Assembly: GCA_021324885.1 (NCBI GenBank)
Contig: JAJPIF010000026.1
Location: forward strand, 1-64,000
Source: Pseudomonadota bacterium
Lineage (GTDB): Bacteria > Desulfobacterota > Binatia > Binatales > Binataceae
Direction of reading: 5' to 3'
Length of the DNA stretch: 64,000 bases
A program made the position numbers and the translations under genes. Shown here in pieces: positions 21,895 to 25,166 of this stretch. Within the stretch, counting starts at the first letter, position 1, and every line of letters starts with the position of its first letter. The notes under the pieces are model-generated. The model made no database searches. It was not told the origin of the DNA and saw nothing but the letters and a program-made list of their open reading frames with translations.

Positions 21895-22106
21895 AGAGAG
21901 AGGAGTGAGGGGAGAGAAGTGAGGAGTGAGAGGGCAGAGAAAGAAGTCAGCAAAGAGAGTTTTGGAAAGACCGCACGCCCCGCGACCTTCAAAACGCGAA
22001 ATTGTTCCGCTTGCACCGGGGAAGCGGAAAGGGATTGAGTTTCCGTTTATCTCTCCTCTTTTCCACTTTCACTACTCACTTCTCTCACTCACTACTGTTC
22101 TTTCTA
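21892..22106. repeat. GA/CT-rich imperfect inverted repeat (copy 2)
   Basis: Left arm gagaggagtgaggggagagaagtgaggagtgag; right arm cactttcactactcacttctctcactcact; the right arm encodes the C-terminus of the DUF692 gene. Confidence 0.6.
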
Positions 22107-22908
22107 TGGCGCGGGCGCGCTCCATGTGTGCGGTCAGTTGTTCGAATTCGGGAATCCGCGCGTCCCATTCGATCAAGGTCGAAACCCGGCCGCATCGCTC
22201 AAGCGCGAGCCTCAACAGTTGCCAAACCGGTTCGCTTACCGGATGGTCGTGAGTATCGACGAGATGGGTGCCGGCGTCACTATGGCCCGCCAGATGGATT
22301 TGGGCGACGCGTTGCGCACAGATCCGCTCGATATATTCGGCGGCTGAAAATCCATGGTTTTGCGCGTTGACGTGGATGTTGTTGACGTCGAGCAGAATCC
22401 CGCAGTCGGCTCGCTGCGCCACCGCGTTGAGGAACTCCCATTCCGGCATCGTCGAATGCCGATACGTCAGATAACTCGATACATTCTCGATTAGAATTCG
22501 CCGTCCAAGCCGATGCTGGACCTGGTCGATTCGTGCGGCGACGTGCTTCAGCGATTCCTCGGTGTAGGGCAGCGGCAGCAGGTCGTGAGTGAAATGCCCG
22601 CCGAAAGCGCCCCAGCAAAGATGGTCCGAGATCCATGCCGGCTCGAACCGCTTGATCAGGATGCCGAGTTCCTCCAGATAGTCCGATCGCAAGGGATCGG
22701 TGCCGCCCAGGTTCAGCGAGACTCCGTGGAAAACGATCGGGGACTGTTCTCGCGCTTTTTCCAGAACGATCAGCGGCCATCCCGCGCGGATCATGAAGTT
22801 TTCGCTGATTACCTCGTACCAATCGGCGCGCGCGCCGCCGCCAGGAATCAGTCGGTAATGCGGCGGCCTTAACCCCACCCCGTGACCGATATAGGGGAAA
22901 CCTTCCAC
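22072..22908 (-). CDS. DUF692 / MNIO (multinuclear non-heme iron oxidase) protein, BufB-like
   Basis: GHGVGLRPPHY, EVISENFM, VFHGVSLNLGG, ISDHLCWG, ILIENVSSYL, DCGILLDVNNIHVNAQNHGF, QIHLAGHSD, DTHDHPVSEPVW. Confidence 0.92.
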   Translation of the reverse strand: MEGFPYIGHGVGLRPPHYRLIPGGGARADWYEVISENFMIRAGWPLIVLEKAREQSPIVFHGVSLNLGGTDPLRSDYLEELGILIKRFEPAWISDHLCWGAFGGHFTHDLLPLPYTEESLKHVAARIDQVQHRLGRRILIENVSSYLTYRHSTMPEWEFLNAVAQRADCGILLDVNNIHVNAQNHGFSAAEYIERICAQRVAQIHLAGHSDAGTHLVDTHDHPVSEPVWQLLRLALERCGRVSTLIEWDARIPEFEQLTAHMERARAIERTVVSERSE

Positions 22909-22977
22909 GTCAATGATTAACGGGAGCTATCTGTTTGGATCCCGGTCTGCAGCGGGGCAGGGCGGACAATGCCAGCG

Positions 22978-23247
22978 TTACATCGCCTTGGGCTCGGCCA
23001 TCACGGTTCCGCCCTTCGTAGTGCATTCCTTGGCGCTGCTCACCGTTACCCATCCCTGACCCTTGCAGGAGTTGTGGCCCTTGCAATCGTTTTTGGCCGA
23101 TGCGCACGCGCCTTGCCCTTTGCAACTGTTGATTCCCATGCATCGCACGGTGGTTGAGCCTGCGCTCTGGTCGGCGCGCGCGCTGACCGCGCCGCTGACG
23201 ATCAGGAGCGCAGCGGCGCCCGCGATAGCAATTGATTTTGGATTCAT
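22978..23247 (-). CDS. BufA2-like (bufferin-type) Cys-rich RiPP precursor with signal peptide
   Basis: 89 aa: Sec-like signal MNPKSIAIAGAAALLIVSGAVSARA, then RCMGINSCKGQGACASAKNDCKGHNSCKGQGW...ECTTKGG (6 Cys); GGGAGGA RBS; 69 bp upstream of the MNIO gene. Confidence 0.82.
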   Translation of the reverse strand: MNPKSIAIAGAAALLIVSGAVSARADQSAGSTTVRCMGINSCKGQGACASAKNDCKGHNSCKGQGWVTVSSAKECTTKGGTVMAEPKAM

Positions 23248-24364: not shown

Positions 24365-24652
24365 GTGGGGGGACTTCAAAATCAGATGGAAAAGATATTA
24401 ACCGGCCTGTTGGAAAGGGCGTTGCGCTCAGTCAGTCCGGTGATGGGCGATGGATCACGGGCGGAGACGGCAGGGTACTGCGAATTGTGCCGGGGGTCGG
24501 GGCTCCACGATGACGCTGCGATGCGGTGCGAATGCTGGTGTCATGAGGCGCGCGCGGCGGTGAGGGCGGCAGAGGCGCAGGGCGCTACGCGCCGGCGCAC
24601 GCCGGCGCGTAGCGCCCTGCGCGGACGTGGCGAGAAGAGCCGCCGCGGCTAG
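24365..24652 (+). CDS. Small Cys-rich hypothetical protein (3' end inside hairpin cluster)
   Basis: CELCRGSGLHDDAAMRCECWCHE zinc-binding-like motif; downstream coding is made of palindromes. Confidence 0.4.
   Translation: MGGLQNQMEKILTGLLERALRSVSPVMGDGSRAETAGYCELCRGSGLHDDAAMRCECWCHEARAAVRAAEAQGATRRRTPARSALRGRGEKSRRG
24575..24622. repeat. Perfect 22-bp-stem hairpin 1
   Basis: gcgcagggcgctacgcgccggc (24575-24596), gcac loop, exact reverse complement 24601-24622. Confidence 0.95.
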
Positions 24653-25166
24653 CTCCGCGCCTGCGCGGAGCCAGCCGCGGCGGCGGGTTGGCGGGCGGTC
24701 GGGGATAGGCGGCGCTTTGGCGCCGCCTATCCCCGACCGCCCCTGCCCGGTTTGCGCCAGCCCCCTTCGCAGGCGCATCGAGTTGCGCCTGTTGCAGGGA
24801 GCCGCAGAGGCCCAATCCCTCGCAGGCCTGGGCCCCCACTCTCTCGGCCCTGCCGACGTCGCCGCTCACATCGAATCCGCTCATCTCAACGCGGATCCGT
24901 CCATGCTCGTCGGCTGCCTGCTGCAACTGCTGCGTGAGTCCACCCAGGGCAACCGGATTGCCCCCAAGCCAACTCTCGCCGCTATTAACCAGAACCACAA
25001 ACTGCGTCTGGAGGTGATCAAGTTGCTCGCCGCCGTCGGGCATTCGGCGGGCGCTCGGACTCCCGCTGGTTTCAGCGGCGAGACGCTGAATCTGCTCTTG
25101 AGCGACCAGCAGGCGCGGGAGATGCGCAAGATTGCCGCCCGCCGCGAGGCTAAGCGGCGCAGCTGA
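24627..25166 (+). CDS. Zinc-ribbon/HTH-like hypothetical protein (N-terminus uncertain)
   Basis: CPVCASPLRRRIELRLLQGAAEAQSLAGLGPHSLGPADVAAHIESAHL resembles CPxC-HTH proteins common on mobile DNA; first ~40 residues lie in the hairpins. Confidence 0.5.
   Translation: MARRAAAASSAPARSQPRRRVGGRSGIGGALAPPIPDRPCPVCASPLRRRIELRLLQGAAEAQSLAGLGPHSLGPADVAAHIESAHLNADPSMLVGCLLQLLRESTQGNRIAPKPTLAAINQNHKLRLEVIKLLAAVGHSAGARTPAGFSGETLNLLLSDQQAREMRKIAARREAKRRS
24639..24684. repeat. 22-bp-stem hairpin 2 (one mismatch)
   Basis: gccgccgcggctagctccgcgc (24639-24660) / gcgcggagccagccgcggcggc (24663-24684). Confidence 0.93.
24693..24742. repeat. Perfect 23-bp-stem hairpin 3
   Basis: gggcggtcggggataggcggcgc (24693-24715) / gcgccgcctatccccgaccgccc (24720-24742), tttg loop. 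Confidence 0.95.

Follow-up and report, generated by a model that had tools for sequence, protein, structure and literature searches.

Clustered near-perfect hairpins within bacterial genes: a candidate case of fold-back template switching

Three consecutive hairpins with nearly perfect stems and no sequence in common raise the question of how such structures come about and what keeps them paired. We studied them in a 64-kb stretch of bacterial DNA (the window, meaning the whole stretch analyzed), which belongs to a 4.53-Mb assembly of 30 contigs (genome G000). The earlier note had reported three sequence-unrelated hairpins in a row, and they proved to be real. The stem coordinates that it gave hold for the first two, whereas the start of the third (24692) was one base off. 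The hairpins are as follows.

24575-24622, no strand: hairpin H1, perfect 23-bp stem, 2-nt loop
24639-24684, no strand: hairpin H2, 22-bp stem with one A.C mismatch, 2-nt loop
24693-24742, no strand: hairpin H3, perfect 23-bp stem, 4-nt loop (TTTG)

Of all short-loop palindromes in the window, H1 to H3 are the longest, and the next one measures 15 bp. As RNA, the region from 24555 to 24763 folded with a z-score of -11.1, and no shuffled sequence folded equally well; as DNA, the single hairpins had z-scores of -8.6 (H1), -7.6 (H2), and -11.8 (H3). When 1.64 Mb of the genome was shuffled in 60-nt blocks, the best palindrome score was 13, far below the 19 to 23 of H1 to H3, so chance does not explain them. 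Searching each hairpin singly, as had been proposed, returned only self matches in the assembly. Two further members of the genus (G001 and G002) have hairpins of their own at this locus.

The hairpins coincide with two small genes, neither of which could be assigned to a family.

24386-24652, + strand: gene A, 88 aa, Cys-rich (YCELCRGSG...CECWCH)
24627-25166, + strand: gene B, 179 aa, GTG start, CPVCASPLRRRIE... plus a helical C-terminus

Gene B starts inside gene A, with an overlap of 26 nt in the +1 frame. H1 encodes the C-terminal Arg/Ala/Pro tail of A, and the TAG stop codon of A lies within the 5' arm of H2, its A being the mismatched A of that stem. The start codon of B falls between H1 and H2, and H2 and H3 together encode the N-terminal linker of B, which precedes a CPVC...H-type motif and the predicted helical C-terminus. 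The earlier note had placed the hairpins between two open reading frame segments and suggested a comparison with the uninterrupted homologous gene. No such gene exists: in G002 as in the window, A and B overlap by about 25 nt with an unchanged relative frame, which led us to reject a single interrupted gene. They are distinct genes that overlap and are each conserved separately, and the hairpins are coding DNA.

Orthologues of A have 65% identity in G002 and 59% in G001. One clear further homologue occurs in G004, which has A only and no hairpins there. As for B, a survey of 41 family genomes returned it solely from the three members of the genus. The differences between orthologues are concentrated at third codon positions both in the Cys-rich domain of A (0.51, versus 0.17 and 0.19 for first and second positions) and in the motif of B (0.41 versus 0.16 and 0.06), which indicates that both genes are real. 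In the N-terminus of B, which lies under the hairpins, the three positions differ at 0.41, 0.42, and 0.54, and coding constraint is relaxed there. Residues 1 to 43 of B are predicted to be disordered; the structure model, with a mean pLDDT of 51.5, was too weak to use. Neither protein matched Pfam, and B had no match in PHROGs. A mobile A/B cassette was also rejected, as no relatives of B were found among phages or plasmids and none of either A or B among viral contigs.

Both related genomes, which are labelled Centralia soil MAGs in public records, contain A, B, and hairpins of their own at corresponding places. The stems measure 23, 22, 20, 15, and 12 bp in G001 and 21, 19, 17, and 13 bp in G002, where a 26-bp stem with three mismatches is also found. 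The centres of H1 and H2 are identical across the three genomes; the bases differ, and the changes are matched on both arms. In H1, both members of 7 of the 23 pairs have changed, and no pair shows a one-sided change. The counterparts of H2 are a perfect 22-bp stem in G001 and the 26-bp stem in G002, and those of H3 are shorter (15 bp in G001 and 13 bp in G002). One further site in gene B is a perfect hairpin in the relatives and a partial palindrome in the window.

24797-24836, no strand: hairpin site in gene B, perfect in G001 (20 bp) and G002 (19 bp)

To the pairing itself we applied a count over 26 hairpins from four genomes. Their 555 pairs comprised 543 Watson-Crick pairs, 2 G-U pairs, and 10 mismatches, and the unpaired positions were mostly A.C, C.C, and T.C rather than G-U. 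Terminator-like stems of the same genome had G-U in 10 of 147 pairs (P = 6e-6 [by Fisher's test]), a contrast that is somewhat biased in that the control scoring lightly rewards G-U and the hairpins were picked by Watson-Crick scoring. Between species, where orthologous hairpins were compared irrespective of mismatches, 55 changes were two-sided and kept Watson-Crick pairing, versus 11 that were one-sided (these are pairwise counts and not independent). Two-sided change combined with a near absence of G-U is the pattern that copying from one arm to the other would produce.

Hairpins of the same kind occur elsewhere in these genomes. We scanned 1.64 Mb (36%) of G000, 0.41 Mb of G002, and 0.36 Mb of G001 for palindromes. 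In the G000 sample, stems of at least 12 bp form two groups, one of 12 to 17 bp and one of 22 to 24 bp. The longer group consists of eight hairpins in exactly three clusters, all in genes: A/B, ftsY, and a FUSC-type transporter gene. The reading frames are open through all eight, the spacers inside clusters are often just 4 to 16 nt, and most hairpin lengths are not divisible by three. Translational bypass of the hairpins was rejected on these grounds, the ftsY and transporter frames being open throughout.

In ftsY, the two hairpins of G000 lie in the Ala/Pro-rich linker that leads from the membrane segment to the GTPase domain. The same linker has three hairpins in G001, two in G002, and two in G003, a member of another genus, with stems of 21 to 24 bp in these three genomes; none were found in G004, in G018 (of the same genus as G003), or in the other family members examined. 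One ftsY hairpin has a centre common to G000, G001, and G002. It is decaying in G000, and 4 of its 17 pairs have changed on both sides, with none changed on one side only.

The third cluster consists of three hairpins in the linker joining the two halves of a 748-aa putative FUSC-like transporter, a name that we gave from reading its sequence. The orthologues in G001, G002, and G010 lack hairpins, and the cluster is a lineage-specific gain of G000. Between anchored positions, the linker measures 204 nt in G000 versus 123 to 153 nt in relatives. The excess of 51 to 81 nt is better fitted by about three inverted single-arm copies (69 to 75 nt) than by three whole hairpins (144 nt), although these relatives are too distant to resolve one event. 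Insertion of whole hairpins was rejected, as the transporter linker is too short for it and no target duplications were seen flanking the hairpins. Four other genes with Pro/Ala-rich linkers that we sampled had no hairpins.

Several further observations came from the scan. Two of the three G000 clusters lie about 61 kb apart on one contig, C9 (L149:11435-11590 and L106:9829-9965), which may be chance or a regional effect; no GC-skew switch was found near the clusters on that contig. Beside a winged-helix-like gene in G002 (L074:6097-6196), two hairpins (a 22-bp stem with two mismatches and a perfect 19-bp stem) lie in what seems to be intergenic DNA; they may be a noncoding instance of the same phenomenon. 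By eye, two G-rich/C-rich arms, each about 21 nt long and almost complementary to the other, lie about 50 nt apart in the transporter linker of G002 (L189), possibly the remnant or the precursor of hairpins. Ordinary repeats are also present. Unlike the unique cluster hairpins, a dispersed palindrome, GCAGGTTGCGGAAAA-N4/5-TTTTCCGCAACCTGC, is repeated in the genus at the following sites.

G000, L045:15773-15806, dispersed palindrome
G000, L098:14614-14647, dispersed palindrome
G000, L113:18587-18618, dispersed palindrome
G002, L071:6260-6296, dispersed palindrome

Three related imperfect hairpins in G002 (L077:97-157, 248-308, and 875-935), with an arm of CCCCTTCCCGATACGGGAAGGGG, represent an ordinary repeat family.

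Among the options listed in the earlier note, palindrome-generating replication errors fit best, once refined to a template switching that also maintains the palindromes. We consider it somewhat probable that fold-back template switching, acting on the DNA, both makes the palindromes and keeps them perfect, and that disordered linkers tolerate them. During replication or repair, the 3' end of the new strand would pair back on itself at a short, GC-rich inverted repeat that becomes the hairpin tip, copy some 15 to 20 further bases of the neighbouring arm, and then rejoin its own template. One arm would thereby become the reverse complement of the other, with either a net gain of about one arm length or overwriting at constant length. 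Later rounds of arm-to-arm copying would remove mismatches, so that the sequence drifts and the pairing stays perfect, and the palindromes would persist where they encode disordered linkers or tails rich in Ala, Arg, Pro, and Gly, in which every sequence is acceptable that keeps the frame. The copying mechanism, its direction, and the lack of a selected function are what we infer in this fold-back reading. Recurrence in unrelated genes (A/B, ftsY, and the transporter gene) counts in its favor, as do the transporter hairpins gained only in G000, the ftsY hairpins present in G003 but not in G018, the relaxed coding constraint in the N-terminus of B, and the lack of flanking target duplications. 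The split of stems into those of at most 17 bp and those of 22 to 24 bp argues against template switching alone, which predicts a broad length distribution. Further points weigh against it: the eight long hairpins of the G000 sample are without exception coding, when other unconstrained DNA should be affected too, the four other linker genes have none, and close strains have shown no intermediate event. Template switching by itself explains neither the 22- to 24-bp size nor the clustering.

All three genomes of the genus have kept hairpins at A/B and in ftsY, which makes selection conceivable as well, through ribosome pausing at domain boundaries or A-B coupling. No Rfam family and no tRNA was matched in the window, and what is left of the structured RNA proposed in the earlier note is a selected mRNA structure whose hairpins slow ribosomes at domain boundaries and couple the translation of B to that of A, which we regard as possible, if rather unlikely. 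It would suit the very strong folding, the location of hairpins at domain boundaries in three genes (for example, after the FtsY membrane segment and between the transporter halves), and the shared centres with pairing maintained in three genomes, and, relative to the hairpins, the start of B and the stop of A are placed alike in G002 and the window. RNA selection would leave G-U pairs free to arise, however, and they are far scarcer than in the terminator-like stems, the unpaired positions not being G-U either; moreover, the transporter orthologues and most ftsY genes of the family do without hairpins. A dedicated element or enzyme, lacking any sequence of its own, might instead write hairpins of a set length (about two helical turns), or insert them, at tolerant sites. 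The narrow size class in G000 and in the ftsY genes of the other three genomes, together with the tight clustering, speaks for such an element, but the hairpins share no motif, lack flanking duplications, are mostly not multiples of three in length, and, in the window, are unrepeated in the genome; no candidate enzyme was identified either, and we are very doubtful of this reading. Elements of these readings could be combined: a lineage-specific DNA-level activity (polymerase, repair, or element encoded) would write and re-perfect two-turn hairpins, without sequence specificity, at linker sites of a few genes, and the hairpins would function there, e.g., in timed ribosome pausing. We think this improbable.

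The other explanations that had been raised fared worse. Several hairpins in a row superficially resemble an intrinsic terminator cluster, an attC array, or a REP/REPIN array, but no T-tract follows H1, H2, or H3, no GTTRRRY or RYYYAAC boxes occur on either strand between 24550 and 24770, the sequences are not repeated, and the hairpins are inside open reading frames, which makes any known palindromic feature of this kind highly improbable. The worry about an assembly artefact or chimera had some ground in that all hairpin-bearing genomes are draft assemblies, two of them labelled MAGs. Orthologous hairpins with different bases are present in two other, independently assembled genomes, however, and in three genes with intact frames, so that an artefact is practically excluded.

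Fold-back template switching has precedents. The nearest is that of nematomorph mitochondrial genes, for whose perfect coding palindromes template switching has been proposed (PMC6649704). Shared features are perfect inverted repeats in translated genes, midpoints common to different species, near-binary perfection, gains and losses, and a proposed arm-to-arm copying. The nematomorph repeats occur in worm mitochondria, reach up to 284 bp, and have arms that encode conserved protein regions, whereas those described here are hairpins of about 47 nt and narrow size range on bacterial chromosomes, clustered and mostly in disordered linkers. For rRNA and microRNA genes, template switching is documented both as an origin of RNA hairpins and as a process that maintains them (PMC8794818). 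The one-step origin of perfect stems and the multibase compensatory change are common to those cases and ours, although our hairpins are protein coding, have a preferred length, and are clustered. In yeast, template switching has been reported in coding genes (PMC8604942), and quasi-palindrome correction homogenizes arms within genes, as here (PMC8604942, PMC3820800); the yeast repeats are short and nonidentical, in contrast to the long, near-perfect, grouped stems of the present genomes. Clusters within genes are unusual given that a large survey found perfect inverted repeats to be mostly intergenic in all domains (PMC13155455). We found no earlier report of such hairpin clusters in bacterial genes in the open-access literature. 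Palindromic DNA is nevertheless inserted in frame in bacterial genes, at tolerant protein regions, by the Rickettsia palindromic elements. Those elements form repeated families of related sequence, unlike H1 to H3, which are mutually unrelated and unique in the genome.

Compensatory changes in long, perfect stems are usually taken as evidence of selected RNA structure. Here, G-U pairs are nearly absent, unrelated genes are affected, and one cluster is a gain of a single lineage; these three points argue that the same signal can be imitated in bacterial protein-coding genes by a copying mechanism. If so, bacterial proteins would have a new way of acquiring linker sequence, and RNA discovery based on covariation would call for caution. 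Since a purely stochastic template switch should not prefer 22 to 24 bp, the narrow stem length opens the mechanism to direct testing.

One observation concerns another part of the window. On the - strand, at 22072-23247, a gene for a RiPP enzyme of the MbnB/TglH/ChrH family (278 aa) adjoins one for a Cys-rich peptide of 89 aa that looks secreted and has KGQG/KGHNSCKGQG repeats; we take this peptide to resemble a bufferin-type RiPP precursor.
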